Shown here: positions 545-62,238 of the stretch, one piece after another
Layout of the letters: every line of letters starts with the position of its first letter
Numbering within the stretch: position 1 is the first letter of the stretch
From: Sipunculus nudus
Lineage: Eukaryota > Annelida > Sipuncula > Golfingiida > Sipunculidae
Direction: 5' to 3'
DNA: 64,000 bases
NCBI GenBank assembly: GCA_026874595.1
Contig: CM049322.1
Location: 3,395,900 to 3,459,899, forward strand
Translations under genes and position numbers: made by a program
Notes under the pieces: model-generated
Told to the model about the DNA's origin: nothing
The model's input: the letters and a program-made list of their open reading frames with translations, nothing else
Database searches by the model: none

Positions 545-1123
545 TTATATCTTCAGCTTCAGATCAGGACATTTTATTGCCAGCGTCTGTTTTATTTTCT
601 CCCTCACACGGTCAGATATTTTTCTGTTAGCTGACATATTTAGTGTCCTAAGACCTGACAGTTTTTCTGTTCTGTTTACCAGATCCTCCATGTTGTCATC
701 CATGTGGTTATGTTGTACCTCGAGGTTGATGAGTTTATGACAGTCTGGTAGTTTGTCCAGCACTGACCAGAACTTCTGTGATGTGAGGCGGCAGTCACTG
801 AGTTTGAGAGTAATCAGATGTGTGTCAGGCAGACATTCTGTTAGTGAGTGGACAGAAACCATGGTCAGGGGGGTCAACGCAAACTCTAAATGACCAAGAG
901 TCTTTAAATGTCTGACTGCTCTTATTACAGCCAGCAGGTCAGGAGAAGTGTCATCATCATCATCATCACCACCACGCCACAGTGTCCCTCCATATCTAGT
1001 CAGCAGGTTAAACTGCTGCACTTTGAGTGTTTGTATCGGGAAGTGTGTGAGTATCAGGTCAAGTTCCTGTGTCATGTAACTCTCATCAACAGAACAAAGT
1101 GGACCAGACGACCAGCAATACAA
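545..1123 (-). pseudogene. Leucine-rich repeat C-terminus of the NLR, beyond an in-frame TAG
   Basis: Directly after the TAG, the same frame stays open for 192 codons to a stop at 547-545, and the sequence is clearly NLR-like: HLITLKLSDCRLTSQKF, KLINLEVQHNHMDDNM and GLRTLNMSANRKISDRV are consecutive RNase-inhibitor-type LRR units. A run of six Asp comes from a CAT/ATC trinucleotide stretch near 951-968. The intact LRR frame means the stop is young, polymorphic, a sequencing error, or tolerated by readthrough. No splice pair that skips the TAG was found. Without readthrough this part is not translated from this transcript. Confidence 0.75.
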
Positions 1124-22520: not shown

Positions 22521-23580
22521 CTTTCAGCAAATTATGCATGCTTGAGGCGAGCCATACACTGTTGCAGGTAGGCACTTTATGGCCAGCCACAGTTGATCCA
22601 GGTGTCCAACCCAACTCATCTAGTAGTTTTAACCAACAACATAACAATTAACAATAAATAAATAAATTTTTTATTGTTTTTTAATAACAAATTAAAGAAA
22701 AATAAAAAAGAATTTGTTAGTTTATAATAACAGGAAATCAACTTGCTGTTACTGATGATAAAAGAATCTTGTATCGATGGATAGAATGTCACGTACTCCA
22801 AATAACACCATGCAGTCACCTATGGTATTTTTCAGTTCAATTTTAATGATAAAAAAGTAAATCATATTATTCATTACTTATCATTAGGGATCATATGAAG
22901 GAAATTAATGATAGACAAAGATGCAGTTGATATTATTAATCTAGATTCCTACTGTGTCTAGTGTGTACATTGATGTGAAATTAGTCCAAAATGAATATAT
23001 TACATTTTTTTTTTTTTTTTAATATAAATAAAAGCCATAAAACCAGGTACTTTTGATCATAATTTAAATGTGTGAATTTTGTATATTCTGGATTCTCAAC
23101 ATAATTGTTTGGTGAAAACTGAATAAATGCCAGTAATGGTGGGAAAACTTTGCAATTGTATTTAAATACCAATATGAATATGTACTCCATTATAAAATGT
23201 CTTGCATAAAGAATTGGAATTCATGTAAAAATGAAAGTATATGAATACCAGTGCAAATACTTTCAAAATGTATTCATGAATGCATTCATGAATATATTCT
23301 TTAATATTATTTTAATAATCATTTCAGTTATATTTCATTTTAAAAAATCATAAGATTCTCTTATTATTTATAATAAAAAATTATATTTGGGACGATATTT
23401 GTAATTTTTTTTTAATAAATAGTTAAACTCTTATATCATATGTTCTGCTTATAAGTTATATGGCCAAGTCAAAATCTGTGTGACAATAGTACTCCATTTG
23501 TTAATAAAATAAATGAAATCAATCCTCTTCCCTGTCTCCAAAGATAATATCATAATCATACATAAGCTTAACACCAACAA
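22520..23580. other. AT-rich filler between two element copies
   Basis: Between the dimer and the full copy at 23586. No coding or terminal motifs recognised; contains an 18-T run near 23007. It may be unique DNA carried within the insertion or a diverged 3' half of the first copy. Confidence 0.4.
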
Positions 23581-23585
23581 TATTT

Positions 23586-25489
23586 TTAGCTCAGCTGACT
23601 ATAAGTCATCTGAGCTATAGTCGTGGTCCATTGTCCGTCGTCCGTCCGTCTGTCCGTCCGTCCGTCCGTCCGTAGATGTGGCACGTTTTGAAACCGTAAG
23701 ACCTAGGAATCCAAAATTCAGCATAATGTTAGATGTCCCCAAGATCTCCTACCAAGCCGAAAACTGGGTCTCTGCGACTTCGTTCCTTTGAGAAATTAAG
23801 GAAAAACCTCAATTTTTTATTAAAATCCTATTTTCACACTTCAGGACTGCCTAATATCAAAACCACTCATCTGTTTTTCCTCATATTTACCATAAATATT
23901 CTTCTTTATAGTTCCTATGTACATGCCAGAAATTAAGTCTGTTAAGTATAAATTCTTTAAGTTATGGGCCCAAACATAATGGACTTTGTAAAAAATCAGG
24001 AAAAATATTTACTCACTTAACATGCAAAATTTTGAAACTAGAGTCTGTTTTCCCAAGTATATAACCATGTTTAATTAAGATTCAATTGTTTACCCAAAAT
24101 TAGATCTGAATTTTGTAAATTTTTTAAGTAATTAGCATAAAAATAAAATCAGGACCTTAAATTTTGCCCAACATTGACCATGGCACGTTTTTTTCCTGTA
24201 AGCACCATTGATTTAATTTTCACAGCATGTGAACATAAATATTTAATTTGTTTAAATCTGAAATTTGGAAGTAAAAGCTTGAAAATTAAGCTAGTTATTG
24301 ATTTTTTTCTTGAGGCTCTATTGTAGTCATTTGCTTTGTTTACAGATTACAGATGCAGGGTCCCACTCCAGGTCACTGGAAGTCAGCTATGCCAGAGTTT
24401 CTGATTTGTTACAGTCACTGGGGGAGATCCCCTGCTGTGACAGGTGTACAGTTATTCTCATATCACCACCCCAATGACCCCCCCCCCCCGCAAACACAAC
24501 CCACCAAGTGTTATGCAGTATTGTTATTGTTTTCACTGTATCTCCTTAATTGTAATGCTGCTTCCACTCTGATATGCAAAAACTTTCCTTGAAAAAGTAA
24601 TTCAAGGTGTAATCCAGAAGATGCAATGTTGTGTAATGTAGCATTTTTAAAGAAATCATTTTTCTTTTAAATGATTTTACCAATCATAATGGAACCCATT
24701 AGTATGCTTAAATTATGATAAAATATGAAGCACATTATGGATAAATAAAGACACAATTAAAAATTATAAAATCTAAATTCAAGTATTTTTTTTAGATATT
24801 TATTGTTTTGCAGATTTAAAAGATATATTTTTGTGGTAAAAAATAAATAAACATTTGTATGCATGATGTGGTGTTATCTGACAAGATTGAGATTTATGAT
24901 GATGCAATTGAGAATTATGAATCAACTTTTATATTCAGATATATATGTTATATTGAAAATGTATAGAAATATAAACTTAAATTAAAAAAAAAATTGATGT
25001 GATAAAAAAATGAGGATTTATTACAAACATTTGTTCATTATTTTCCTGCATCAGCAGAATTTGAGATCAGGCTTTGTTTGCCATGTTTTATGTTGTTAAT
25101 TAGTTATATTTCAACTGTATACATTTCATAAAAAAAACATATTTAATAATATATATTATACAAAAAAAAAGATTCGATTGAACAAATGTGTAAACTACTG
25201 AAATGTCAACAGTTAATCGAAAAGCCAACTAATGGTCATGGTAACTGTACAGATCATTTGTTCACAAACTGCTCACATGCTTCAGTTTCAACATTAGGAA
25301 ACACATGGTCAGGTCACAAAATATTATTTGCAACAATTTCTTGCTCATCAATACAAACCAATAATATAAACCAACCATGGCCTTTATTACCTCTTCCTCT
25401 TACACTTTATCTCCATTTGATATTATTTTAGATTTTTACCTTCAAGGTTAACTTCAGCTGAGCACAGTGACCCATAGGTCCCTTGTTTT
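23586..25489 (+). mobile_element. Full-length 1.9-kb AGCTCAGCTGA-family element
   Basis: The 5' end is TTTAGCTCAGCTGACTATAA with a GTCC run (23633-23670); the 3' end is ACTTCAGCTGAGCACAGTGA, then CCCATAGGTCCCTTGTTTT at 25489, where the LINE resumes. Internally it has a poly-C stretch near 24480 and an endonuclease-like fragment at 25186-25431. Inverted copies of the same body lie at 26890-28818 and 46335-48820. No transposase, Rep or helicase frame is present, so it is non-autonomous. Confidence 0.8.
25186..25431 (+). pseudogene. LINE endonuclease-like fragment inside the 1.9-kb element
   Basis: An 81-codon frame: MCKLLKCQQLIEKPTNGHGN, then TDHLFTNC..., then GNTWSGHKILFATIS. The pattern 'L.QLI..PT...N.LD.I.TN...V...(S)DHK...A.I' is the C-terminal part of non-LTR retrotransposon AP-endonucleases; here the catalytic SDH reads SGH. 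A second copy at 46351-46629 (minus) keeps the same pattern. The frame has no start context of a host gene and is only a fragment. Confidence 0.55.
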
Positions 25490-26470
25490 AAATAGTAATA
25501 TGGATCTAAATAATATAAACGTATTAAAAATGACTAGTTTTCATAAAGAAATACTGAGAAAATATGTAATCTTGCGCACAAAGTATTTAGAAGTGGTCCT
25601 TGTAAGACAACAGATAATATGGAATAATAAAATGTTAAAATTATATGCAGAACCTGTCTATTGGGAAAGTTTTCTAGAAGCAGGCATTATCACAGGATCA
25701 GATTTATTTCTGAATAATTCTATTGTACCTTTCAAACAATCGACAAATAGAGGTATACCAAGAGTAGATTTCCTGAAGAGGTATGCTCTGGTGTCCGTGA
25801 TTAGAAAAAAAGCGTAGGCAGGCAGTTTGACTCTGAAAATCCTCTAGACTTTCTTTTATTTACACAGATATATTTGTACAATAAATAGACCCCCAATAGG
25901 ATAATATATTCTACTTTTAAAAATATGTTGTTAGAAAAAGGACCCTATGTTCCAAATATTGTCCAGACTGTTATATTCGTTTAGAAAGAATATATTCCTT
26001 AAAAAAAAACTATATGTATGTCAGGTCACGAGCATTTCAATATAAATTCCTGAACAATTGTCTGGTCAATAATTATTGGTTATGCAAATGGAAAATTTAA
26101 GAATCAGTTCGATGTACATTTTGCGATAAGGAACCAGAGACTTTAATCCATTTTATTTTGGGACTGTGATCTAGTGGCTGTTCTCTGATCAGGGTTAGAA
26201 GTATAGTGTAGGAAACAGAAGATCATATTTGACAAATGTTTATCAGTAATATTGTTTGGTGATTTTAATGCTTCATTGAGTAGTAATTTAATGATGTTGC
26301 TGGCTAAACAATTTATAAATAACTGTAGAAATAACAAAGAATATCCAACTTTACAAAAGTTACAATGTTTAATTTGGAGATATGTAAAAGTTGAATATAT
26401 TATTGCACAAAAAAAACTAATAAAGTGGATAATTTTATAAATAAATGGCATTCATATATTACAGACAGAA
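25490..26470 (+). mobile_element. L1/Tx1-like LINE ORF2 relic, 3' part
   Basis: The LINE resumes: NVLKMTSFHKEILRKYVI (25515-25570), then QQIIWNNKMLKLYAEPVYWE and GIITGSDLFLNNS, matching the post-RT 'iWNN..i...gkp.f...W...GI....dll' block; near 26105-26165 it reads VRCTFCDKEPETLIHFIL, the C..C...H zinc knuckle at the end of L1-type ORF2. Together with 18690-21026 this is one element split by insertion. No poly-A tail is visible before the TA tract at 26544. Confidence 0.8.
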
Positions 26471-26541
26471 ATTTGTTAAATATATACCATAGTCAGGACA
26501 TGTGCATACATGTATAAACATGTATGTTTGTGTATGGGTAT

Positions 26542-26543
<2 letters not shown>

Positions 26544-26579
<36 letters not shown>

Positions 26580-26599
26580 ATATATATCAATATATATAT

Positions 26600-26637
<38 letters not shown>

Positions 26638-26640
26638 ATA
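26544..26640. repeat. (TA)n tract with TATCAA interruptions
   Basis: Long alternating TA with three TCAATA interruptions, directly after the LINE 3' end; all long frames here (repeating I-Y) are artefacts. Confidence 0.95.
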
Positions 26641-26889
26641 TGTATGGGCCTATATATGTATATTGGTATATATATATGTGTGATGTATATGCCAGCAAAG
26701 AGTTAAATTTACATTAACACTTTGAGAATGTTTGTTAAAGCGATTTATTCAGGAAGATGGCATAACATGTATTTTATCGCAGGACATGTTTAAGAGTCAC
26801 ACATTAGAAATCTATTATTTGTACTTATTTTGTGAAACTGGTTTTTTTTATATTATTGGAGGTGGGATGGGGGGGGGGGAGAGGGTAGA

Positions 26890-28818
26890 CTGAACAAGGG
26901 ATCCATGGGTGACTGTGCTCAGCTGATGTTAATCTTTAAGGTAAAAATCTGAAATAATATCAAATGGAGATAAAGTCTAAGAGGAAAAAGCCATGACTGG
27001 TTGACATGATTGTTTTGTATTGATGAGTAAGAAATTGTTGTAAATAATATTTTGTGACCAAACCAAGCATTTCCTAATGTTAAAATTGAAGCATTGTGAA
27101 CATAAGATGTATATTATTTACATGATCATCGGCTGGCTTTTTTGTAAATTGTTTACAGTTCAGTAGTTTACACATTTGTTCAATTGGATCTATTTTTTTC
27201 TAATTTATACATTATTAAATATATGTATTTGCTAATTTTATAAAATATACAGTTGAAATATAACTAATGCCCCTAGTCCACAGATGCAAGGACTTGATGG
27301 TGGTGTGGTGCGGGGTGGGGGTGGAATGATCGGAGTTACATGGAATGTGGGATCAACTACACTTCTGCATATACATACAGGGCAAACAAAGCCTGATCTC
27401 CACTTCTGCTAATGCAGGAAAATAATGGACAAATGTTTGTAACAGATCTTCGTTTTTTAACATAAGTCTATATTTCTATACATTTCCAATATTACATATA
27501 TATCTGAATATAAATGTTGATTCATAATTCTAAATTGCATAAACATAAACCTCAATCTTGACAGACATATACCACATCATGCATACATATGTATGTCTAT
27601 TTTTTACCACAGAAATATATCCTTTAAATTTTCAAAACTATAAATATCTAAAAAATACTTGATTCAGCTTTCACAATTGTGCCTTTATTCATCCATAATT
27701 TGCTTCATAATTACTTAGTTTATGCATACTGATGGGTTTAATTATATTTTAATTTGTTAAAATCATTTAAAAGATAACTGATTTCTATAAAAATGCTACA
27801 TTAACACAACATGGCATCTTCAGGATTACTCCTTTAAATACTTTTTCATTGAAAGTATTGTATATTGGTGTGGAAACGGCATTACAATAAAGGAAATATA
27901 GTGCAAACAATATCAATTACTGCATAACACTTGACAGGTGGGGTTGGCGGGGGGGGGGGGGGGGAGAATATGAGAATAACAGTACACCTGTCACAGCAGG
28001 GAATCTTCCTCAGTGACTGTAACAGTTCAGGAACCCTGGCATAGCTGACTTCCAGTGGCCAGGAGTAGGCTGCCTGCATCTGAACAAAAGCAAGTGACTC
28101 TAATAGAGCCTCAAGAAAAATATCAATAACTGGCCTTATTTTAAAGCTTTTATATTCAAATATCAGATTTAAACAAATTAAATACTTATGTTTAAATGCT
28201 GTGAAAATTAAATCAACACAGCTCACAGGAAAAAAATGTGTCATCGTCAAATTTCGGCAAAATGTAAAGGTACTAATTTTATTTTTACGCTAAAAACATT
28301 GAAAAATTTATAAAATTCAGAACAAATTTTGGGTATACAATTGAATCTTAATGAAACAAAGTTATATACTATGAAAAAAGTCTATACGTCGAAAATTTCC
28401 ATGTTAAGTGAGTAAATATTTTTCCTGATTTTTAACTAAGTCCATTTTGTTTGGGCCCATAACTTTAAGAAATTACACGGACTTAAATTCTGGCACGTAT
28501 ATAGGAAATATATAGGGAAATACTTCTTGTAAATATTAAGAAAAACAGCTAAGTTGTTTTGCTGTTAGGCAGTCCTGAAGTGTGATAATAGGTTTTTAAT
28601 GGAAATATGAGGTTTCTCCTTAAGTTTTCGAAAGAACGAAGTCGCAGTGACCCAGTTTTCGGTTTGGTAGGAGATCTTGGGGACATCTAACAGTATGCCG
28701 AATTTCGGATTCATAGATCTGACTGTTTCAAAACGTGCCAGTCTAACGGACGGACAGACGGACGACGGACAATTGACCACGACTACAGCTCAGATAACTT
28801 ATAGTCAGCTGAGCTAAA
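26890..28818 (-). mobile_element. Full-length 1.9-kb AGCTCAGCTGA-family element, inverted
   Basis: On the minus strand it begins at 28818 with TTTTTAGCTCAGCTGACTAT, followed by the GTCC/GACGG run (28750-28770), and ends at about 26893 with CAGTCACCCATGGATCCCTT. The body is collinear with 23586-25489. It contains a 15-G run near 27950-27963. The endonuclease-like frame is broken in this copy. Confidence 0.8.
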
Positions 28819-28930
28819 AATGACTAATTTGAATGTCAAGAGAAATCTGGTGATTGAGTTGTATTGCATAAGGTACCTTCCTCCAATGAGCATATGAGCA
28901 TTTGTTTATTTTTTTGCAGTATACCAATGC

Positions 28931-28932
<2 letters not shown>

Positions 28933-28978
<46 letters not shown>
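28933..28978. repeat. (TA)n tract
   Basis: Pure TA alternation between the inverted element and the 29.1-kb minisatellite. Confidence 0.95.
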
Positions 28979-28979
<1 letters not shown>

Positions 28980-29122
28980 ATGAATAAATAAGAAAATGTG
29001 AATTGCCTGCAACACAATATGAGTGCGGCGTGAGGATTACATATATGTGAACAATTGAGAATCAGGTGAATGAATATGTTTGAATCTGGAACAGCTGAAT
29101 GATGGTTTCAAAAGAAAAGACC

Positions 29123-29458
29123 AAGGAGGCTCATATCATAGTGAACCAGAGAAGTACGGTAGAGATCTAAAGAGGGCTAATATCGTGGTGAACTTGAACA
29201 GGAATGTAGAGATCTAGGTCGAGATTATATCATGGTGAAATGGACCAGTGCCGTAGAGATAAAAAGAATGCCGATATCATGGTGATATGGAGCAGTACTG
29301 TAGAGAACTAGGGCTGGATTAAATCATGGTGAACTGGAGCAGTACAACAGAGCTCTAAAGGGGGCTGATATCGTGGTGAACTGGACCAGTACATTGTGAT
29401 CGAAAGAGGGCTTATATCATGGTGAACTGGAGCGGTACTGTAGAGAACTAGGGCTGGA
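29123..29458. repeat. Minisatellite, unit about 50-55 bp
   Basis: Units of the form 'gggctaatatcgtggtgaac ... ggaccagtac...gtagagatcta' repeat about six times with point changes (GGGCTGATATCGTGGTGAAC, GGGCTTATATCATGGTGAAC, and so on). It ends exactly where the duplicated element body begins (about 29460), suggesting a duplication breakpoint. Confidence 0.85.
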
Positions 29459-29459
29459 C

Positions 29460-30413
29460 TTGGTGGTGTGGTGCTGGGTGGGGGGTGGAATGATCGGAGT
29501 TACATGGATGGTGGGATTAACTACACTTCTGCATATACATACAGGGCAAACAAAGCCTGATCTCCACTTCTGCTAATGCAGGAAAATAATGGACAAATGT
29601 TTGTAACAGATCTTCATTTTTTTAACATAAGTCTATATTTCTATACATTTCCAATATTACATATATATCTGAATATAAATGTTGATTCATAATTCTAAAT
29701 TGCATAAACATAAACCTCAATCTTGACAGACATATACCACATCATGCATACATATGTATGTCTATTTTTTACCACAGAAATATATCCTTTAAATTTTCAA
29801 AACTATAAATATATAAAAAATACTTGATTCAGCTTTCACAATTGTGCCTTTATTCATCCATAATTTGCTTCATAATTACTTAGTTTATGCATACTGATGG
29901 GTTTAATTATATTGTAATTTGTTAAAATCATTTAAAAGATAACTGATTTCTATAAAAATTCTACATTAACACAACATGGCATCTTCATGATTACTCCTTT
30001 AGATACTTTTTCATTGAAAAAGTGTATTGGTGTGGAAACAGCATTACAATAAAGGAAATATAGTGCAAACAATATCAATTACTGCATAACACTTGATAGG
30101 TAGGGTTGGCGGAGGGGGGGGGGGGGGATATGAGAATAACAGTACACCTGTCACAGCAGGGAATCTCCCTCAGTGACTGTAACAGTTCAGGAACCCTGGC
30201 ATAGCTGACTTCCAGTGACCAGGAGTAGGCTCCCTGCATCTGAACAAAAGCAAGTGACTATAATAGAGCCTTAAGAAAAATATCAATAACTGGCCTTATT
30301 TTAACGCTTTTATATTCAAACATCTGATTTAAACAAATTAAATACTTATGTTTAAATGCTGTGAAAATTAAATCAACACAGCTCACAGGAAAAAAATGTG
30401 CCATCGTCAAATT
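29460..30413 (-). repeat. Direct duplicate of 27298-28252 (partial AGCTCAGCTGA element)
   Basis: Runs from TGGTGTGGTGCTGGGTGGGG to GAAAAAAATGTGCCATCGTC with very few differences from 27298-28252, so this is a recent direct duplication about 2.16 kb apart. It stops after the G-tract and captured 3' body; the 5' end with its GTCC run is missing. Confidence 0.9.
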
Positions 30414-30569
30414 TCAAATCACGTAACTTCAGGAAATAATTGGCCTTAAGCCCTGACTCCTCCATATGTAAGGCCCGAACGTCACCATTTAAGTGCCACA
30501 AGGCCAAACTATGTAATATTTGATAACTATATAGGTACATCGTAAAGCGGCTCTAAGCCAAGTCTGTGT

Positions 30570-42793: not shown

Positions 42794-43009
42794 TGTTATT
42801 TTTTTATATATAAACATTTAAATGTTTAAATTTTGTATAATGATTATTTTATTATATATATACATATATACACAGATGAACATGTACATATACGTTTTAT
42901 TATTTTGGTATATCTAATGTGGAATAAACAGTTTTTGTGTTTTTGTGTATAGAGATATATGTGTGTATATATACATATATATATATTTATATATATATAC
43001 ACTCTAAAA

Positions 43010-43300
43010 ATGGATCGGTTAAATTCAACCAAAAAATTGGTTGAAATCAACCGGTCTTCTCGGTTGATATGTGTCCAACCAATTAACCGGTTGATTTCAA
43101 CCGATACCAATTGGTTGATTTTTCAACCAATATTTTTGGTTGAAATCAACCATGTGACTGGTTGAAATCAACTATGTGATTGGTTGAAATCAACCAACAA
43201 TAATGGTTGAAAACAACCAATACTGAATCAACCAATTTGATTCAGATGACCATATTGGTTAAAATCAACCAAGAAAATTGGTTAAGAAGGAACCAACCGA
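43010..43300. repeat. Array of GGTTGAAATCAACC palindromes
   Basis: At least eight copies of TTGGTTGAAATCAACCAA or close variants (GGTTGATTTCAACC, GGTTGAAAACAACC, GGTTAAAATCAACC), with irregular spacing of roughly 25-35 bp. Each copy is a self-complementary 14-mer, so it is a likely array of binding sites or foldback units. Confidence 0.9.
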
Positions 43301-43443
43301 ATACCCTAGCAAAATATGAAATGGTTACAAAATGCAGTTGAATTCAGCCACAATTGCCTGAAAACAACTAACATAAAAAAAATTTTGCATAAAATTGTGA
43401 TGCAGTGTGCTCAAATATCATGGTGAAAAAGAATTAAATATAC

Positions 43444-43630
43444 CTTTGTACCAAGTAATGTCAAGGAATATTCCTCAGCCAGTCAAATGAACAAAATAAA
43501 ACACAATTTGCACTTTGCATGATACTGCTGTTCCTCTGATTGTAGAAATGTAATGAAATTGGAAATATCACTCTGTGTGGCAGTACAAGTGCTCTGATAA
43601 CCAGCTTGCATTCATACATCAACCTTTTGT
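43444..43630 (-). pseudogene. Exon-like segment of the transposon gene
   Basis: Bounded by a good acceptor (accatttcag) and donor (AAAG|gtatat). No frame is fully open with a recognisable domain; one has two TGA codons. Judged an exon relic by its splice bounds only. Confidence 0.3.
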
Positions 43631-44220
43631 CTGAAATGGTAGACACAAAACAAGAGCATTATATTGATAAAAATAATTGTTTAATAAGTCCAGTAAAATA
43701 ACAATGTAACATATAATTAAATCATGCATGCAGTACACAACTTGTAACTGCACAACTGGCGACACAAGCCTCCATTTAAAAACATATATATACAAGTAAG
43801 ATTTTCTAGAGTCCAATGCTAAAAATTGAATTTCAGGAAATTGAATTCACAATTACTGATAATTTAAAAATGGACAGATAGACAGGTAGACAAACAGAGT
43901 TAATCACTTTATCTCCCTTTCTGCTGAAGCTGGAAAATGATTAACATATGTTTGAAGTACTCTGGAAGTGCAGTGTCATGGATACCTGACTCATAAAATG
44001 ATGAAACAAGAGTCTACAGTCAATACTGTTCCCTGATGACTGTCTTCATTGCATATGCCTACATGCATCATGGTGTCTGAGAAACACAGCAACACTGAAC
44101 TCAGTCACTGTTGATCTTCATCAAACATTTAGAAACTGAATTTCTAGATCTGAAAATACATCAAATTTCACATTAATAATAAAAGATGAAAATATGTGTT
44201 GGTGTTAATACTGTTCTAAT

Positions 44221-44222
<2 letters not shown>

Positions 44223-44276
<54 letters not shown>
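44223..44276. repeat. (TA)n tract inside the 9.5-kb element
   Basis: Pure TA alternation, about 54 bp. Confidence 0.95.
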
Positions 44277-44280
<4 letters not shown>

Positions 44281-44799
44281 CACACACGCAATTTTAATCC
44301 AACCCCTTATAACTGCTTGTGATATAGGCATACTTCATGCACAAGGAAGTACAAGAGGGCGAGACCTAAACAGTGACAAAACATGCAATTACATATTAAC
44401 AGTTTGTTATGATGACGATAGACTACCTATCATCAATGGATATTAAATTAGTCTGAACGAGGTAGGCCTACAAGTATAAATGTACTCATTATTGATTAAA
44501 TATGTACTGTAACAGAATTCAGACTTTGTGCATATCTTGCAATTGTACAATAATACAAGAAGAAATACAATAGAATATGGGTCATCATAACATGATTTCA
44601 GGTGATGGAGATTTGCCCATTTCCAAAATTTCAAAGTTAGAAAGTTCCAAACATATTTGTTTTGCTTATCTGAATTTCAATGCTAAAACCATGCACTTTC
44701 TTAAAGTTCACAGAACATTAGTCATAGTGTCCAAACTTCAGGATTCAAAGGAGACCTCCCTAGATATTGAGTATGAATGGCCTAATGGTTAAATATATG

Positions 44800-45670
44800 C
44801 CCTGTCAGTCTTTTAGGCTGCTCAAAATTATGTTTTCGGCCCGTATCTCACAGAATAAAGTTCACTATGTCCTACAGTTTTTGACAAAATGCTATCGAAT
44901 TTTCATATTATAATAGTTTTAATCTTTGCATTTTGTACATACAAAATGTCAACTGTGCTGACAGGAAAGCAAATGTGCAATGGTCAAGGTTTGACAAAAT
45001 TTAAAGGTCTGATATTACCTTTATGACAATAACTTAAAAAGATTATAAAAATCTGTCATATGCTAGAAAAAAAATATAAATCTGTTATATGCTTGAACAA
45101 AATTTTAAAAAAAATCTGTTATATGCTTGAAAATTTTTGTTATAAAAAAATCTGTTATATGTTTGAAATTTTTTTTTATAAAAAAATCTGTTATATGCTT
45201 GAAAATTTTTTTATAAAAAAATCTGTCATATGTTTGAAATTTTTTTTTATAAAAAAAATCTGTTATACGCTTGAAAACGACTCTTATCTTCAACATCTAT
45301 CATGTAAAGTAAGTCGATATCTTTCCTGATGTTTTCACAAGATACATTTTATTTGGGTAAATAACTGCTACAAATTGTGCAATTGTCACCCAATTTTTGA
45401 CAATAAAGTGCAACAATTGGCTTTTACTGAAAAAATTGAGGTTTCTCCTTAATTTCTCATAAAAAATGTAGTCACAGTGACCAATATTCAGGTTTGTTAG
45501 AAAATAAGGACATCTACCTGGATGTTAAATTTTTGATTCACTGGTCCAGTGGTTTTGAAACGTGGCATGTAAACGGAGATCGAGCTGGACAACCAGACCG
45601 ATAATGGACAAATGACCATAGCTATATCTGACATAACGTATATACAGGTAGTCATCTGAGCTAAAAATGG
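44800..45670 (-). repeat. Diverged AGCTCAGCTGA-family copy
   Basis: Minus-strand end near 45665 (TTTTTAGCTCAGATGACTAC), then 'gaaacgtggcatg' and 'gacatctacctggatgtt' equivalents of the family body. It is interrupted by the minisatellite at 45046-45285. Confidence 0.65.
45046..45285. repeat. Minisatellite, unit about 30-34 bp, about seven copies
   Basis: Unit TCTGTTATATGCTTGAAA plus a T-run and TATAAAAAAA; variants with CATATG or a truncated spacer. Frames through it on both strands are repeat artefacts. Confidence 0.95.
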
Positions 45671-45775
45671 TGCTACATAAATATTCCCTTTAACACAATA
45701 TCAATTATTCTCAATTGAATGATAGCTCTTATTTCTAGAATTGTAAGAAATCTAAAAGCCTAAATCAGTATATAC

Positions 45776-45889
45776 CTTCTGAACATCAATAAATGCTGCC
45801 TTTGCTTCTGCTATGGTGGGCTTGGCATTTCTTCCTCTGTGCTGGAATCAGTTTTGGCAGTAAACGAAGCATCATAGCACTAATGGCAC
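45776..45889 (-). pseudogene. Exon relic of the transposon gene
   Basis: Acceptor gtttctttcag, donor AG|gtatat. One frame starts AISAMMLRLLPKLIPAQ and a second frame continues RGRNAKPTIAEAKAAFIDVQ up to the donor, so a single frameshift splits what looks like one exon. Not assigned to a known family. Confidence 0.5.
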
Positions 45890-46334
45890 CTGAAAGAAAC
45901 CAGGAATATAACAGAATGTCAACTTGTAGGACAATAACAGATTTACTACGAAAAATTTAGTTTCTCGACCAATAAACAAATTTCATGGAATGTCCACAGG
46001 CATTATGAAAATCATGATCCTGCTGATCATGCAGTGGTCAAGATTTTGAAGCAAACTGGTTTGATAACCTTCCTTGTAGATATATATATACCATAACTCA
46101 TGAGTGGTCATATTGAGTGATTGATAAAGGGACTATTTAAAAGTTAAATGTGTCCATTAGTCATTTTTCTCCATGAAATGCATTTAAAACTGTTTAAAAT
46201 GTTAATGATGAGTCAGAAACAGGTTTAAAAGAGACCATTACATCAGCTTTATTATACATATAAAGATGAAGGAGGGCAGATTAATAAAAAGTCACATACA
46301 TGTCACTCTCAAATCCATCTGGAACCTCTGTATA

Positions 46335-48820
46335 AACAACAAGGGATCCATCAGTCACAGTGCTCAGCTGAAGTTGACCTTGAGGTAAAAATCTGAAAAT
46401 GGAGGTAATGTCTGATATGAAGAGGTAATATAGACCATGGCTGGATGATATGATTGGTTTGTATTGATGAGTAAGAAATTGTTGCAAATAATATTTTGTG
46501 ACCTGACCATGTGTTTTCAAATGTTAAAATTAAAGCATGTGCACGGTTTGTGAACATTAGATGTATATTATTACCATAATCATTGGTTGGCTTTTTGATA
46601 AATTGATGACAGTACAGTAGTTTACACATTTGTTTGATTGGGTCTATTTTTTATTAATATTTTTTATATTATTAAATATATGTATTTTTTATTTTATAAA
46701 ATGTATACAGTTGAAATATAACTTATGTTCCCAGTCCACAGGTGTAAGGACTTGGTGGTGGTGTGGGGGTGGTATGACCGGAGTTACAACATCTCTGTAT
46801 TATCAAAGTGTATATACATAGGATTTTCACTTAATTCAACAAAGCTTGCAGAATAAAAAAGTTCATTCACAATTACTTATATTTTAAAAAAGGACAGACA
46901 GACTGGTAGACAAACAAAGCTGATAATATATGGTTCAATTATTTCTTAATTTTTTTATTATATCAATTTTTTTTAAAGTTTAAAATCTGAAATATTACAC
47001 AATTGAGTATATAAGTTGTTTTCAAATTTCAGACTTTAATAGCTTAAATCCATACACATACAGCATATGAAAGTTATTTCAACAGTGCTTATAGGAAAAA
47101 TATCATGATAAATATATATTTAATGATAACGGAGAGATGATGGACAGACAGAGCTGATCACTTTATGTTCCATTCTCCTGAAGCAAGAATGTGTTTCAAT
47201 TAGATCTTAATTTTTTCTAATCCAATTGTTTTTTAAATGAAATAAATTTTACACACTTGCACAGGCGCAAAGGAATCATTGGTAGCGGGGGGGGGGGGAG
47301 GGGATTAACAACACTTCTGCATATATACATACAGGGCAAACAAAGCCTGATCTCCAATTCTGCTGAGGCAGGAAAATAATGAACAAATGTTTGTATTAGA
47401 TCCTCATTTTTTTTTATCACATCAATTTTTTTTAAATTTTAAGTATATATTTCTATACTTTCCCAATATAACATATATATCTGAATATAAAAGTTAATTC
47501 ATAATTCTAAATTCATCATCATATATCTCAATCTTGTCAGTTAACCCCACATCATGCATACAAATGCATATTTATTTTTTTACCACACAAATATATCTTT
47601 TAAATTTGCAAAACAATAAATATCTAAAAATAATACTTGAATCAGATTTCACAATTTTTCATTGTGCCTTTATTTATTTGTAATTTGCTTCATATTTTAT
47701 AAATTTATGCATACTGATGGGTTTAATTTTAATATTTTAAAATCATTTAAAAGGAAATTGATTTCTTTAAAAAGGTTACATTAACCCAAATGGCTTCTTC
47801 TGGATTACTCAATGAATTACTCATTCAAGGAAAGTTTTGTATATTGGAGTGGAAACAGCATTACAGTTGAGGAAATACAGGGCAAACAATAACAATTACT
47901 GCATAACACTTGGTGGGTAGGGTTGGCGGGGGGGGGGGGGGTGGTGGAGTTGATATGAGAATAACTGTACACCTGTCACAGCAGGGGATCTCCCCTAGTG
48001 ACCTGTAACAAATCAGGAACCCTGGCATAGCTAACTTAACTTCTAGTGACCAGGAGTGGGCTGCCTGCATCTGGACAAAGCACATGACTATAATAAGGGC
48101 CTGAACAAAAAAAATTCAATTATAAGCCTAATTTTTGAGCTTTTATTTTCTAATTTCAGGTTGAAACAAATTAAATACTAAAGTTTACATGCTGTGAAAA
48201 TTTAATCAACAGTACTCACAGGAAAAAAAAAAAACGTGCCATGGTAAAATTGAAGGTACTTATTTTATTTTTATGCTAATAATTTTAAAAAATTTAATAA
48301 TTCAGATCTAATCTTGGGTATACAATTGAATCTTAATTTAAACAAAGTTATAAACTTGAACGAAAGGTCTCTAGCTTCCAAAATGTTCATGTTAGGTAAA
48401 TTTCCTGAATTTGTAATTTACAAAGTCCATTATATTCGGGCCCACAACTTGAAGAAATTACACTTAACAGACTTAATTTTCAGCATTTATAAGGAAAATA
48501 TATAGGAGAATACCAGTACTTCGGGTAAATATTAAGAAAGAAAAACAGACAGATCAGTGGTTTTGATATAAGGCAGTCCTGAAGTGTGATAATAGGTTTT
48601 TAATGGAAACCTGAGGTTTTTCCTTAATTTCTCAAAGGAATGAAGTCGCAGTGACCCAGTTTCCTGTTTGGTAGGAGATTTTGGGGACATCTAACAGTAT
48701 GCCAAATTTTGGATTCATAGGTCTAATGATTTCAAAACGTGCAAATCTAACGGACGGACAGACGACGGACAATGGACAATGACTATAGCTCAGATAACGT
48801 ATAGTCAGCTGAGCTAAAAA
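46335..48820 (-). mobile_element. AGCTCAGCTGA-family element, inverted, expanded
   Basis: The minus-strand 5' end is at about 48820 (TTTTTAGCTCAGCTGACTAT), with GTCC-type run 48751-48775; the 3' end is at about 46342 (CACTGTGACTGATGGATCCC on the minus strand). The body is collinear with 23586-25489 but about 0.5 kb longer, with extra sequence roughly 46830-47290. It has a G-run near 47929-47942 and keeps the endonuclease-like fragment at 46351-46629. Confidence 0.75.
46351..46629 (-). pseudogene. LINE endonuclease-like fragment (second copy)
   Basis: A 92-codon frame beginning MCKLLYCHQFIKKPTND and continuing FTNRAHALILTFENTWSGHK, ILFATIS. It aligns along its length with 25186-25431. The same open frame in two copies that differ at many positions could mean inheritance from one captured fragment; selection is not shown. 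Confidence 0.5.
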
Positions 48821-48828
48821 AAAATTTG

Positions 48829-48900
48829 GGCAGCTTCTGTAGTCTAACAGGTAGAACACATGATTTATACCTGGGAGGTGGAAAGTTAAAATCATAGCCT
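48829..48900 (+). repeat. Degenerate tRNA-like SINE head
   Basis: CTTCTGTAGTCTAACAGGTA (A-box-like) followed by GAAAGTTAAAATCATAGCCT where a B-box should be. Weak. Confidence 0.3.
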
Positions 48901-49071
48901 AGAAGTAGTGTGCTTGTCTTGGACGGGCCATGAAAGCCATGATTGTTACAGAAGATGGTCAAGATACTGAAACTTGTACCACCGTACTCAACTGATTAGC
49001 AGACAGATTAAAATCATGTACAATATTTCAAAAAGAACTATACACCTACTTATAAGGTGGTCCAAGATTAC

Positions 49072-49243
49072 CTGCTGATGGCTCAGATGAATTCAAACCA
49101 GCTATCATCTTCATGCTGTCTGGGTATTTCACTGCCACCTGGTTCTTATCCTTCAGCTAGGATGGCTGCCATGTCATCTCATTTAGCCATCAACTCCATC
49201 ATGCCTCCTCATCCAGATATATTCCGAAGAAGTCTCCCTCTAC
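49072..49243 (-). pseudogene. Exon relic of the transposon gene
   Basis: Acceptor attcatag, donor CAGCAG|gtaatc. The frame reads RGRLLRNISG, then MMELMAK, DDMAAILAEG, then EPGGSEIPRQHEDDSWFEFI, separated by stops (three TGA, one TAA). The TGA codons are what CpG decay of CGA would give. No known domain. Confidence 0.45.
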
Positions 49244-49611
49244 CTATGAATGTCAAGTTAGCCAAATCAAGAATCAGTTTGCTTGGAATAGTTTACTGAT
49301 AGATCAGGTATTATATAAAACCTTGAATTCACCTACACAAAGTAAAATAATGAAATCATTTACATGATGAAAAAGATTGGGTGCCTCTGGCTTCTCACAT
49401 TAGTATTGTAGGAGACTTTTTATTCTCAGGTTGAAGAATCTGACCATTGTAAACAGGATTATGCATGCAACACGTCACTAGTAACTTGTTTACCTTTAGC
49501 CTAAAGATCCATTGGGATTATAGTATCATCTGAAAGAGTATTTTCACTGGTAGGACTAGTGATTGTAATATAGATTTTTTAAATAGAAAATCAGGAAGTA
49601 ATTACCCATAT

Positions 49612-49725
49612 ACAGGGGCGGATCCAGGATTTAGAAAATGTGTCATACAGACCCTTATGTGTGTGTCTGTGACTCCACCCCCCCCCCCCGAGTCCTGGAA
49701 CTTAAAGATAAATTGACGCCACTGG
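49612..49725. repeat. Short GGGGCGGATCCAGGA repeat
   Basis: ACAGGGGCGGATCCAGGATT followed about 50 bp later by CCACCCCCCCCCCCG. This combination is recurrent in invertebrate dispersed repeats (hAT-like ends or SINE tails); assignment uncertain. Confidence 0.4.
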
Positions 49726-49761
49726 CTGTAAGAATTAGCAAACCTTAGATATCTCATTTAC

Positions 49762-49911
49762 TTTATATCCAAACATGGGCCTTCTTCTCCACAAATCCAG
49801 GGTAACCTCGACACCCTGTCTCTGAAATGTACTTGTGCATCCTCTCTCTCAGTTCCTGATTTTAATGCTCGAGCCACTTGGTCTCGAGCTTGATGGAGGC
49901 AGTGTCTGGAT
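49762..49911 (-). pseudogene. Exon 2 relic of the transposon gene
   Basis: Acceptor atgttacag before 49911. With the last base of exon 1 it completes GAT and reads DPDTASIKLETKWLEH, then TAA (49864-49862), then NQELRERMHKYISETGC and RGYPGFVEKKAHVWI. The phase match with the 52240-52153 exon supports the join; the internal stop shows decay. Charged, helical; no known family recognised. Confidence 0.55.
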
Positions 49912-50298
49912 CTGTAACATAAAATTACCGGTACTCAGAAATACTATATATACCGTATGAATCTGTATTAAGCAGGCCCCAGGCAGAGCTGATTCATTTG
50001 GATTCAATTTGCATTTTTTTGGCAGGAAAACAAGTCATAATAGAATAACTACTTATTAAAACTACTTCTACTAAAATAATAGTTTCCACTTTACCAGTGA
50101 AATGTTCTGTTTTAATACTTACTACCAAGAGTTATTCTATTTTTCAAGAAATGGAACATTTTTTCTTTAAAGGGGAAAACAATTTTGTACTGTTTAATAG
50201 AAGAAGGGGAACCTTTTATTTTTGAACACATTGTGCACACATGGAAAACAACTTGGCTTCATGTCATATTGCACCAACTTTTAATTTAAGTGATAATA

Positions 50299-50308
50299 TA
50301 TATATATA

Positions 50309-50342
<34 letters not shown>
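50299..50342. repeat. (TA)n tract
   Basis: TA alternation with one AATT interruption. Confidence 0.9.
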
Positions 50343-50345
<3 letters not shown>

Positions 50346-51066
50346 CACATGCACACACATATATATATATTAAATACACATAGCGGTATATTTTTTTAAT
50401 ACCGTTGAAAGTTTCCGTATTTGAATTGCCCTACCTATGTTTGATAATTTATGAAAAAAAACATGACGGTGCATGCATGTCCAGCACTTCAGCCCATGCT
50501 CAGTTATGCGTGACATGCTCTCTCAGACCAAACATGTACGCTCGCACTTGGTATTCTCTGCACCAAAGGTGTGTTGGCCCATGTAACTATTTAACTGGTC
50601 TTATGCCACTGCAATGATGTTCAAGTTCCACTGATAAAGAATGAAAGGAATAAATGGTATAGCACTGAGAACCTGACAAGTTGGTATTCTCACTGGAATT
50701 GGATTAAATCCTGTTGGGTCTCCAATAAAATATAGGCAAAACCTGCCTCCTCTTACCTTGATCATGTTCTAGGTAAATAAATCATTATTCTTGTAAGTCG
50801 TTTGAGTCAGGGTTACATTTGCACTGAAAAGACATGATTTGGGTTTTATCTGACACATGACTTCTTGGCCTTGACCCTTTTATTCCAAGCGGTCAGGGTC
50901 TTCCTGCACACAGAACACAGGGTGACCCGAAAGAAATGAACATGCTGTGTAAAATGATGAAACTTAAATTGGACCACACCAACAATTAATGAGAAAGCCT
51001 GTGAAAAGACAATATATATGACAATATAAACATATATAAACACACATATCAATATTATATATACAC

Positions 51067-51079
51067 TATAATATATATA

Positions 51080-51126
<47 letters not shown>
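51067..51126. repeat. (TA)n tract
   Basis: TA alternation with a TGTGTA interruption. Confidence 0.9.
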
Positions 51127-51129
<3 letters not shown>

Positions 51130-51470
51130 TATACTTATTTAGTATATACTTATAAAGCATATATATATATATAAATATATATTCATTTAAAATATCTTTT
51201 GAAGATGTTACTGTTTTAATGTTATTTTATAAAGGAATATATTTGTTTTATATTCCTGTGACGTCACACAAACATGTTTTTAATATTTCATTTTATTTGT
51301 ACTTAATTTCTATTCATATTAAACATTTAAATATTCATTGGAAGGGGCATATGACATATTAAAGGCATTGGAACCGAAGCCCCCCCCCCCCACACACACA
51401 CAGACACACCCCACACAAAAATTGAAAGTTGGGGTGGGGGCAATTTAATGGAATAGTTTTGCCCATATGC

Positions 51471-51473
<3 letters not shown>

Positions 51474-51525
<52 letters not shown>
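51474..51525. repeat. (TA)n tract
   Basis: Pure TA alternation, about 50 bp. Confidence 0.95.
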
Positions 51526-51527
<2 letters not shown>

Positions 51528-52152
51528 TAAATTTTAATTGTGTAAAATTACCTAAAATCTCTATATTTTTTCTTAAACATTTTGTATGGGCCAACTTGGC
51601 CCAAGGTTAGTGTCCTTCTGTAAAGATTTCCTATGGGATTTTTGTCACCAATATATGTTATATATAATATATATATATATATTATATATATATTTTTCAA
51701 AGAAATGATGTTCCCACAGGCCACGCCTATGTTTCTTCTAACATCTGTCAAACAAATAAATTTAGTCTGCGCATGCGCACTATTTGACAGCATGCATGGT
51801 TTCCTTCGTATCGTGCTCCCTGTGGCAGAACAGTCAGCCATTAATTTTTATTTACACCAAAACACTGCTTCATATTCATAAGAAAAATTAAGAAGGGTAC
51901 AAAAAAATAAAAGAACATTTTCTCTTTGGAATATGAACATTTTTAGAATCGGATGACTTAGAATATGCAAGATGTTATTGGATTCTAATGAAGTGATCTA
52001 ATGTTTTTTACATCATCAATCGATCATGACGGCAATGAATTTAGCGTGTCGGTTTTAAACTAAATACACTGGTTAAAGTCAGTTCTAAAAATACTTTACA
52101 GCCAAATTAAATACCAAAGCCAGTGAAATCTAACCAGAAAAATAAGCCTTAC

Positions 52153-52240
52153 CCTTTATATGACCTGTGAAAAACACCCAGGTCCCTTGCTCCTGCTTCA
52201 ACTTCAGCTTTTCAAGTATCTTCTTCACAAATTTGTCCAT
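52153..52240 (-). CDS. First exon of the gene inside the 9.5-kb element
   Basis: ATG at 52240; reads MDKFVKKILEKLKLKQEQ, then GTWVFFTGHIK, and ends in phase 1 before a good donor (AAAGG|gtaagg). The exon is intact, lysine-rich and probably helical. It joins in phase to 49911, where the frame meets a stop after 16 residues, so the gene as a whole is a relic or allelic wreck. Function unknown. Confidence 0.5.
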
Positions 52241-52261
52241 GTTGAACTAGAAGACGCTACA

Positions 52262-52345
52262 AAACACGTGGACTAACACGCAACTCCTATGCAGCGTCCA
52301 ATGAGGAAAGGCGATCGCGCACGTGCCCCCGTGTCAGAAACAAAT
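52262..52345 (-). promoter_or_regulatory. Promoter-like GC-rich segment upstream of the element gene
   Basis: Within 100 bp upstream of the ATG at 52240, the minus strand shows GGGCACGTGCGCGATCGCC (an E-box CACGTG inside a CpG cluster) and CTCATTGGACGC (inverted CCAAT box). Together these fit a TATA-less promoter; inference only. Confidence 0.4.
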
Positions 52346-52384
52346 CTAAATGTTACTTTGTATCAGATTATCAGTTTGCGGGCA

Positions 52385-52513
52385 ACCAATTGGCCGCGGT
52401 CGATGTCAACCAATATTCTGGGCTCTACTCAAACAATATTTGGTTGATTTTAACCAATATCTGCTTCAACCAATTAAATTGGTAGCTGTTTCAACCAATC
52501 CGTTTTTAGAGTG
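52385..52513. repeat. Right TIR and subterminal TTGGTTGA motifs of the 9.5-kb element
   Basis: Contains CAACCAATATT, TTTGGTTGATTTTAACCAAT, TTCAACCAATTAAATTGG and finally CAACCAATCCGTTTTTAGAG, the counterpart of the left array at 43010-43300. Confidence 0.85.
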
Positions 52514-52655
52514 TACAAATATGTAAATATATATAATATAATATTTATACATAATATATATACACATACATACACAAATAAGCATGTACACATACGTGCT
52601 TTAATTATTTTGATATATATATAGTTTTGGAATGATCAGTTTCTGTGCTATTGTA

Positions 52656-52663
<8 letters not shown>

Positions 52664-52700
<37 letters not shown>
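52664..52700. repeat. (TA)n tract
   Basis: TA alternation preceded by (TG)n; lies in the segment resembling 42875-42990 on the other side of the element. Confidence 0.9.
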
Positions 52701-59061: not shown

Positions 59062-62000
59062 TAGTGGCCCATGGGCCATGACGCTCAGCTGAATTCAAGG
59101 AATGTTCAACAATGAGCAAAATGACTGCCAGAGTGCAAACAAATCATGAATTTTGTGAAGAGTCCTTAGAAATGGTTTAATTGGGCTTTTGAACAGAAGA
59201 CAACTTTATTTGAAGGTCTCATAAATAGAATAAAAATGCGTACAAATTTGAAAAAAAATACAGGTAGTGCCACCAGTTAGCAGGAACTGATGATACTCCA
59301 TGCTCAGTATATATCCGATGAATCATTTCTATCAAGGCATTAGTTATTCAGATACTGGAGCTTTTGTTTGTATCAAATTTTTAATTATTCTCGGGGTTAT
59401 TTACGAGCCCTATAACTCGGACAATATGGGTAACAGAGACCTAATTTCAGGTTTCCAAGGAGATTTTTCATTAGTCTCCCTGGATGTCAAGTAAGAAGAT
59501 TCTAGGTTCAGCAGTTACGGTTTGTGCCATGTTAACAGATGACCACTTCATTTGAAGGTTTCATAAATAGAGAAAAAATGCCTAAAAAATTGAAAAAAAT
59601 ACAGGTGGAACCACCAGTGTACAGGAACTGATGAAACACTCCATGATCAATATGCATACTAAGTATCATGGTCATCAGTGCATTAGTTATTCAGATACTG
59701 GAGTTTTTGTATCACATTTTTAACGAGAAAACATTTGCCAAGCGACAATTTGTATCAGCCGAAGTCAGAGTGCGACAGGTGGAGTGAGGGATGGATTGAG
59801 TGGTATGTCACACCACTCCTGAATATAGTCCACTAAAACTCTGAGAAAAGGGCATTAATTTAATCTACAAAAACACCAGGCGCCACCTGTTTGGTTTATG
59901 AGAAAACTGTCCAAGACGGATTGACATGCCAAATTTCAGGCCAATACCTTGAACCATTCCTAAGATATGAGCAATTTTCACCCAAAGCAAATGTACAGAT
60001 GGACACCGCAGGAAAACCATTGCAGATGGCGCCTCCAGTCTTGAGTACAACGTGGAAGAGTCCAAGATATATGGACATGCACAATTTCGGGCCAATACGG
60101 CACACCACTCCTTAGAAAAGAGCAGTAATTTATTCTACGGAAACGGGAAGGTAAGTGGCGCCATCTGTCTGGTTTACGAGAAACTTTCCAAGATGGATGG
60201 ATATGCCAAATTTCAGACCAATACCTTAAACCACTTCGGAGATATGAGTAGTTTCCACTCAAAACACACCTACGGATAGACACTACCGGAAAATGATTGC
60301 AGATGGCACCACCAGTCTTGAGTACAAGATGGAGAAGTCCAAGATCTATGGGTATGCACCATTAAAGGCCAATAGCACCAATCACTCCTGAGAAAAGAGC
60401 AGTCATTTATTCTATGGAAACGGGAAGGTAAGTGGCCCCACCTATCTGGTTTAGGAGAATATTTTCCAAGATGGATGGATATGCCAAATTTCAGACCAAT
60501 ACCTTGAACCACTCCTGAGATATGAACAATTTTTACCAAAAGCAAATATACGGATGGACGCCAGGTGAAAATTATTGCAGATGGCGCCACCAGTCTTGTT
60601 TACGAGATGGAGGTGTCGAGGATCTATGAACACGCACAATTTAACCCAATACATTGAAAAACCACTAAGAAGAACAGATGGCAAATGCACAGATGGATGC
60701 TACGCAAGAAGTATTGTAGGTGGCGCCACCAGTCGCGATTACAAGATGGAAATATCCAAAATCTATGGACATGCAAACTGTCAGCTCAATACATGGAGCC
60801 ACTCCTGAGGCATCGGCTGTTATCTAAAAGACGCCCAGATTCACACTGCACATAAAGGATTGGAGGTGGTGCCACCTGTCTTTCTTATGCATAACTACAT
60901 AGGTGAGGGAACAACTTTGCCGGGATACGGAAAGATAGATCCAAGGGTCTCAGAGGAGTTCTCCAGAAACGAACACAGTTTTTGTATCACAGTTTTAATT
61001 ATTTCCGGGGTACTTACGAGCCCCATAGCACAGAGGATATGGGAAACAGAGACCAAATTTCAGTTTCCCACGAAGACTTTTCTTGGACCTCCCTAGATGT
61101 CAAGTAAGAAGATTCAAGGTCAAGTGGTTACTATTTGTACCCTGTTAACAGATGACAGCTTCTTTGAAAACCTCAAAAATAAAGAAAAAAATCGTAAAAA
61201 TTGGAAAAAATGCAAGTAGCGCCACCAGTTTGCAGGAACTGATGAAGCACTCCGTGATCAATATGCCTGCAAAGAATCATGGGGATCAATGCATTAGTAA
61301 TTCAAATACTGGAGGTTTTGTATCAAATTTTTAATTGTTCTGAGAAGTACTTACTACGAAGGAAATGGGTAACACAGACCTAATTTTATGTTTTCACAGA
61401 GACTTTTCATGGACCTCCCTTGATGTCAAGTTAGAAGAATCCAGGTCCAGCGGTTAAGATTTGTGCCCTGTTAACAGATGACAGCTTCTTTGAAGATCTC
61501 AAAAATAAAGAAAAAAAATCGTAAAAATTGGAAAAAAAATACAGGTGGCGCCACCAGTCTGCAGGAACTGTTGGAACATCCCATGATCAATATTCATGCA
61601 AAGAATTATGGTGATCAATGCAGTAGTTATTCAGATACTTGAGCTTTTGTATCAAATTTTGCATTATTCGGGGGGGGGGGGTACTTTTGGCCCCATAGCT
61701 CAAAGGATATGGGGACCTAATTTCAGGTTTCCAAGGAGACTTTTCATGGACCTCCCTGGATATCAAGTTTGAAGATTCCAGGTCCAGTGGTTAGTATTTC
61801 TGCCCTGTTAACAGATGACAGTTTAATTGCAGGTCTGAAAAAAAAGAGAAAAATATTCGTTATAACTGGAAAAATATAGGTTGCGCAACCATTCTGCAGG
61901 AAGTGATGGAACGTCCCATGATCAATATTCATGCAAAGAATCATGGTGATCAATGCAGTAGTTATTCAGATACTTGAGCTTTTGTATCAAATTTTGCATT

Positions 62001-62238
62001 ATTCTTGGGGATACTTCGGAGCCGCATAGCTCCAAGGATATGGGTAACAGAGATCTAATTTCAGGTTTCAAGGAGATTTTTCATGGACCTCCCAGGATAT
62101 CAAATGAGAAGATTTCAGATCCTGCGGTTACGATTTGTGCCCTGTTAACGGACGGCAAGACGGCCGGACGGCCTGACAGACGACGAACAAAGGGTGATCG
62201 CTAGAGCTCAGATGGCTTTCATACAGCTGAGCTAAAAA
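59062..62238 (-). mobile_element. 3.2-kb internally repetitive AGCTCAGCTGA-family element
   Basis: Minus-strand 5' end at 62238 (TTTTTAGCTCAGCTGTATGA) and 3' end at about 59062 (TTCAGCTGAGCGTCATGGCC, then CATGGGCCACTAG). The interior has two kinds of tandem repeat: a unit of about 330 bp carrying TTATTCAGATACTGGAG and CTGTTAACAGATGACAGCTT (about 59150-59740 and 60960-62150), and a central unit of about 170-250 bp carrying AAGATGGATGGATATGCCAA and CAGATGGCGCCACCAGTCTT (59880-60830). All frames inside are repeat-derived. Confidence 0.8.

Follow-up and report, generated by a model that had tools for sequence, protein, structure and literature searches.

A young, dispersed 9.5-kb DNA transposon of Sipunculus nudus with subterminal motif arrays, probably non-autonomous and perhaps of the CMC type

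Termini, dispersal and age of the element

The window analysed here, a stretch of 64 kb of the Sipunculus nudus genome (assembly GCA_026874595.1, contig CM049322.1, positions 3,395,900 to 3,459,899), contains at 43000-52513 an element of 9,514 bp, delimited by its paired ends and by a 2-bp duplication. A possible undescribed DNA transposon had been proposed at this place from the DNA letters alone (hereafter, the original prediction); that observation was confirmed as a whole, and its interpretation was partly supported. The 11-mer CACTCTAAAAA occurs only twice in the window (0.09 occurrences expected), in inverted orientation, starting at 43000 on the plus strand and at 52513 on the minus strand. 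The left terminal inverted repeat (TIR; CACTCTAAAAATGG..., 43000-43023, plus strand) and the right one (CACTCTAAAAACGG..., 52490-52513, minus strand) are alike at 21 of 24 positions, so that the predicted 24-bp TIRs are indeed present and inverted, but imperfect. As had also been predicted, the window copy has a TA adjoining each end (42998-42999 and 52514-52515, plus strand), identified in the window sequence and by flank comparison.

The window copy is a single insertion of a family dispersed through the genome (1.43 Gb and 153 contigs searched). With a left-end query of 331 bp, the best 40 of 116 candidates were scored (full-length, 98–100%) and, with a right-end query of 364 bp, the best 40 of 81; by these two scored lists alone, 30 of the 40 left ends have a partner. 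An end-pattern search listed 69 matches, against 18 for the reversed pattern used as control. Fifty-eight right ends were taken for pairing (57 of those 69 matches and one from the scored right-end list), leaving out 12 matches with variant letters, among them the 0.7-kb type described below. An inverted right end was then found 7,629–14,181 bp away from 39 of the 40 best-scored left ends, with a spacing of 9.0–9.9 kb in 27 of the 39 pairs; C13:28094450 is the sole unpaired left end, and 19 of the 58 right ends are without a left partner among the best 40 of 116 left ends. The two ends thus do occur as pairs elsewhere which, together with the duplications described next, bears out the prediction of a DNA transposon. 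The element end gave 0 matches in the bacterial contigs searched and 0 in the viral ones, and literature text searches retrieved no transposon paper by title with the terminal and motif letters, and nothing for a related fish end.

A dinucleotide duplication was present in all 25 pairs examined with both flanks (20 TA, four TG and one CA). The flank match is exactly 2 bp in 20 of these pairs, while in the other five the flanks are repetitive and a longer match is possible. Two pairs on C15 have the same flanks over the 22 bp shown per side and correspond to one event, which gives 24 events in total. Since pyrimidine-purine steps make up 0.25 of the dinucleotides of the window, 24 such targets out of 24 are not due to chance: the target is a pyrimidine-purine step, TA more than TG or CA, and not strictly TA. 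The search proposed in the original prediction, for inverse TIR pairs with TA duplications, was therefore successful as to the pairing, but a TA-only target is contradicted by the five TG or CA duplications. The flanks of the window copy (42820-42999 and 52516-52700) are alike, as if the insertion had occurred into an AT-rich tandem repeat, a weak observation given the AT-rich controls. An empty-site test in this repeat was left out of the evidence: the two flanks joined reach a score of 93, with no control of equal length, and the right flank scores 64, with up to 80 among 46 AT-rich control stretches.

The age of the family was estimated from the distance to the consensus over 1.8 kb per end, in 30 left and 30 right ends. 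Twenty-seven of the 30 left ends are at 0.28–1.96% and 27 of the 30 right ends at 0.28–2.07%; the outliers are three left ends (6.3, 16.5 and 17.9%) and three right ends (11.5–11.8%), and two of these left ends have a deletion or insert and one of the right ends an insert, so that their figures are not ages. As all but three of the 30 ends per side are within about 0.3–2.1% of the consensus, this divergence points to a recent movement of the 9.5-kb family. An older layer is also present, since long blocks of three loci (L069/70, L071 and L072) match at 81–93%. Another locus, L074, belongs to the 9.5-kb type and jumps from window position 51936 to 48145.

Longer copies were considered as candidates for autonomous ones and rejected, as the extra 4.7 kb of a C9 copy consists of two stretches, each with its own inverted ends (judged by eye). 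Nested stretches were observed in L061 (7400-8872, 1.5 kb, with ends CAGTGAAACCTGA.../...TCAGGTTTTACTG and between TA stretches) and in L062 (615-3842, 3.2 kb, with GGGGCACTTTCACAC... ends and a repeated TGTCCTCTCCAGTAC motif), and two 12.7-kb C11 copies may also carry the 3.2-kb stretch of the L062 type. Nested in the window copy, at 46331-48841, is a stretch from another repeat family; this stretch is interrupted in turn and is approximately 79–82% identical to parts of 23559-25494 and 26893-28820; copies of this repeat family are present in both orientations at 21010-30415 and 46331-48841 (~70–96% alike).

Subterminal arrays and short relatives

Both ends of the element harbour arrays of a short motif. 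Allowing at most two mismatches and considering both strands, GGTTGAAATCAACC has 16 matches in the window against 0.67 expected, a number reached in 0 of 100 shuffles, and 15 of these matches, distributed over 10 places, are within the two ends of the element. Exact TTGGTTGA half-sites number 17 in the window, nine of them in the left array and four in the right one. With up to one mismatch, the left array (43017-43290) comprises 18 half-sites, several arranged as GGTTGA-AA-TCAACC, and the right array (52382-52498) comprises seven; the 6-mers TTGGTT/AACCAA reach approximately 45 per kb in both arrays, versus 0.2 per kb between them. The predicted arrays of a self-complementary 14-mer are thus found at both ends, but the palindrome is imperfect, given that the 6-bp arms are self-complementary and the central AA is not. 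In the older copy L069 the end (24/24) and the array (109/111) are identical to those of the window, versus 0.95–0.97 over the next 0.9 kb, a comparison made in one copy and no test of constraint. Perhaps the arrays act as a platform for protein binding, as those of plant En/Spm elements do for TnpA.

We also observed shorter sequences with related ends. One of 720 bp (L073, C8:66120675-66121394) is bounded by CACTCTAAAAACAGATTGGTTGA on one side and CACTCTAAAACCTGTTGG on the other (16/24 alike) and contains the TTGGTT/AACCAA motif 14 times; the adjoining dinucleotides (AA and TA) are unequal and, therefore, do not form a matching duplication. It has 354 candidate relatives, and the 39 others that were scored match at 71–85% in the best piece, many of them only partly. 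Up to 354 candidate places may thus be diverged elements of ~0.7 kb with the end type and the motif arrays of the 9.5-kb element. Another sequence (L075) has ~140 bp at the end in common with L073 and then differs, with no second end within 880 bp. Some end-pattern matches are accounted for by neither the 9.5-kb nor the 0.7-kb type, such as C16:36943584 (with a new interior from ~140 bp onwards), C9:69422910 and C1:87609552.

The internal gene

Four exon-like pieces with splice signals were identified on the minus strand, starting 273 bp inside one end: piece 1 (52153-52240; MDKFVKKILEK..., with an ATG, an open frame and a GT donor), piece 2 (49763-49911; AG acceptor, frame uncertain), piece 3 (49072-49243; AG acceptor and GT donor) and a later piece (45776-45889; AISAMMLRLLPKLIP... 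or GRNAKPTIAEAKAAFIDVQK, depending on which of two frames is read, with an AG acceptor and a GT donor). A first candidate for the fourth exon (46392-46284) was dropped, as it overlaps with the nested repeat. The predicted promoter inside one end has a possible counterpart on the minus strand in a CpG-richer stretch around and before exon 1 (52201-52400; 12 CpG in 200 bp, GC content of 0.46), which has the highest CpG count of the right end and an observed/expected CpG ratio of 1.17, versus 0.65 for the window; nevertheless, the poorer bin 51901-52100 reaches 1.25 with five CpG.

The pieces were compared in seven copies, the window copy included. In piece 3, each of the three frames is interrupted by stops in all seven copies, and the same holds for the later piece in all five copies with a full alignment. 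The window and C9 copies, both young, differ by a frame change of 4 bp within piece 3. In piece 2, a TAA interrupts the frame predicted from piece 1 of the window and a different frame is open; this alternative frame is also open in four of the five other aligning copies (L061/62, L069/70, L071 and L072, not L064/65), and piece 2 is deleted in L063. Piece 1 is 8 bp shorter in L069/70 and L071 and, judged by eye, in L074, and this shorter length leads into the open frame of piece 2; because of the shorter piece 1 of the older copies, the two layers cannot encode the same protein. In a genome search with the pieces, 150 of 337 candidates were scored and 150 matches listed. Among the matches listed, the 18 full matches to piece 3 each have two TGA and one TAG, the matches to piece 2 each show one or more stops in the queried frame, the matches to piece 1 alone are open, no match to the later piece was obtained and no intact version of the gene was present. 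The predicted multi-exon gene seems therefore real in outline, with its splice signals, but looks decayed through stops and frame changes. With the exon limits that we defined, it is probably dead, which implies that something elsewhere moved the young copies.

The original prediction also stated that the exons match no recognised transposase family, which agrees with our results, although with little weight, as the pieces are short: nothing in Pfam was above the cut-off for the exon pieces (one match below it, E 0.036, to a sperm-tail domain) nor for ten further interior frames (one match below it, E 0.061). The later exon may resemble multi-copy fish SAMD3-like proteins, and a literature search for SAMD3-like proteins gave nothing on a transposon by title.

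Three other readings of this gene were considered. It may be a transposase that is not recognised as such, or the fossil of one, from an undescribed superfamily, and either be intact in other copies or work with other exon limits. The position of the pieces just inside one end, their splice signals, the open frame kept by piece 2 in the window and in most other aligning copies and the lack of a Pfam family above the cut-off are in line with this; the stops in all frames of piece 3 and of the later piece in the copies that align in full, and the failure to find an intact version among the matches listed, are not. Moreover, the missing Pfam match says little for such short pieces and no catalytic residues can be named, so that we regard this reading as doubtful. 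A more specific proposal, in which the gene is, or derives from, a transposase unlike those of known superfamilies and an intact relative would move CACTCTAAAAA-ended elements to pyrimidine-purine steps, a multimer using the GGTTGA palindromes as its platform, seems improbable. We also consider it unlikely that the gene is a captured fragment of a host gene carried by a non-autonomous transposon (Pack-type). A multi-exon, decayed gene that, as far as seen, is unneeded for spread would suit such a capture, but the three most divergent long-frame matches read (L069/70, L071 and L072) are older copies of the element and not a host gene, the other listed places not having each been checked.

Class and mode of movement

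The element has the 5'-CAC..GTG-3' termini of the CMC type, duplications whose length falls within the range of this type (2–4 bp) in 25 of 25 pairs, 20 of them exactly 2 bp, and subterminal motif arrays in both orientations. In plant En/Spm elements, a short motif is likewise arrayed in both orientations in the subterminal regions next to the CACTA ends; these elements are unlike the present one in their 3-bp duplications, their motif and their TnpA and TnpD genes. Duplications of 2–4 bp are described for CMC elements (PMC4482050), as are mostly 5'-CA..TG-3' ends with duplications of 2–5 bp for the CMCT group (PMC12730594) and 5'-CAC..GTG-3' ends with 2-bp duplications for animal CACTA elements (PMC6004678). 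ENS1_Cis of Ciona savignyi and the CMC-NA miniature inverted-repeat transposable elements share these termini and 2-bp duplications with our element (PMC6004678); the likeness refers to these two features, and no transposase links the element to them. In the TRC elements of animals (SmTRC1 and relatives, CACTA superfamily) inverted repeats are accompanied by 2-bp direct repeats, reported beside seven of 14 SmTRC1 copies (PMC1636069), whereas their TIRs begin with CCC and they encode Transposase_21, not found in the element copies read. ISL2EU (PHIS) also has 2-bp duplications, described as AT within A|AT|T (PMC4482050), in contrast to the TA, TG and CA observed here; as AT was found in 0 of 25 pairs, the ISL2EU target does not fit. 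ESTA, an EnSpm-like element known from fungi, has TA duplications (PMC12730594), while our element also uses TG and CA sites and gave no transposase in the copies read. Under the Repbase naming rule, membership of a named family involves the duplication length and the first 11 bases held in common with it (PMC4455052). Taken together, the ends, the arrays and the 2-bp duplications agree best with EnSpm/CACTA (CMC), most likely the class of the element, with membership unproven; the results neither demonstrate nor exclude a new superfamily.

We hypothesize, with a probability of roughly 55%, that the element is a 9.5-kb cut-and-paste transposon, probably non-autonomous, that is moved in trans and is most likely of the EnSpm/CACTA (CMC) type. 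A transposase made elsewhere in the genome (itself not found) would recognise the CACTCTAAAAA ends, possibly with the aid of a protein bound to the arrays of GGTTGA/TCAACC half-sites inside both ends; the element would then be cut out and inserted at a pyrimidine-purine dinucleotide with a 2-bp stagger, its own multi-exon gene having presumably decayed by the time the young copies spread. Several observations weigh against this hypothesis. When three EnSpm transposases from this genome were used as queries, no remnant of such an enzyme was detected in the copies read (best E 2.5), and no Pfam family is above the cut-off in the exon pieces or in the ten interior frames. The genome contains seven Transposase_21 places, all at least 3.4 Mb from the 69 end-pattern matches; CACTCTAAAA is absent from the three of the seven that were read (10 kb each, so that element ends may lie outside). 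Among these elements, an end is visible in L067/L068 alone and is apparently CCC, at the point where the two copies diverge. As for non-autonomy, which depends on our exon limits, the open frame of piece 2 in the window and in four of five other copies, and the way in which piece 1 of the older copies leads into it, point in the opposite direction.

L067 and L068, themselves EnSpm elements, resemble each other at 98.6% over 8.3 kb, have open frames of 973 and 858 amino acid residues and subterminal tandem arrays, and are possibly young. A Plavaka transposase profile had 0 matches in the genome, and also 0 in the control genomes.

An element of the Tc1/mariner type targeting TA would account for the 20 TA among the 25 duplications but not for the five TG or CA, and we consider it very improbable, a Tc1/mariner transposase not having been searched for. 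That the locus is no transposon, and results from segmental duplication or chance inverted repeats, might be suggested by the likeness between both flanks of the window copy and by the flanks common to the two C15 copies, but is refuted by the matching dinucleotides at 24 separate flank pairs.

Elsewhere in the window, an NLR-like gene (545-2608, minus strand) encodes a NACHT domain (E 1.2e-15) with an adjoining leucine-rich-repeat match below the cut-off, and tandem arrays of 277-bp and 337-bp period are present at 59879-62149, with relatives at 3861-4640 and 11828-12322.

The element is thus a genuine, young DNA transposon, probably non-autonomous and perhaps of the CMC type. This large 9.5-kb element, with its decayed-looking gene, underwent a very recent spread and coexists with older relatives that share its ends. 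Given this recent activity and ends mapped to the base, its source transposase should be findable. If this partner is of the CACTA type, the family would provide an instance outside plants of palindromic subterminal arrays; if it is not, the family would represent a new superfamily.

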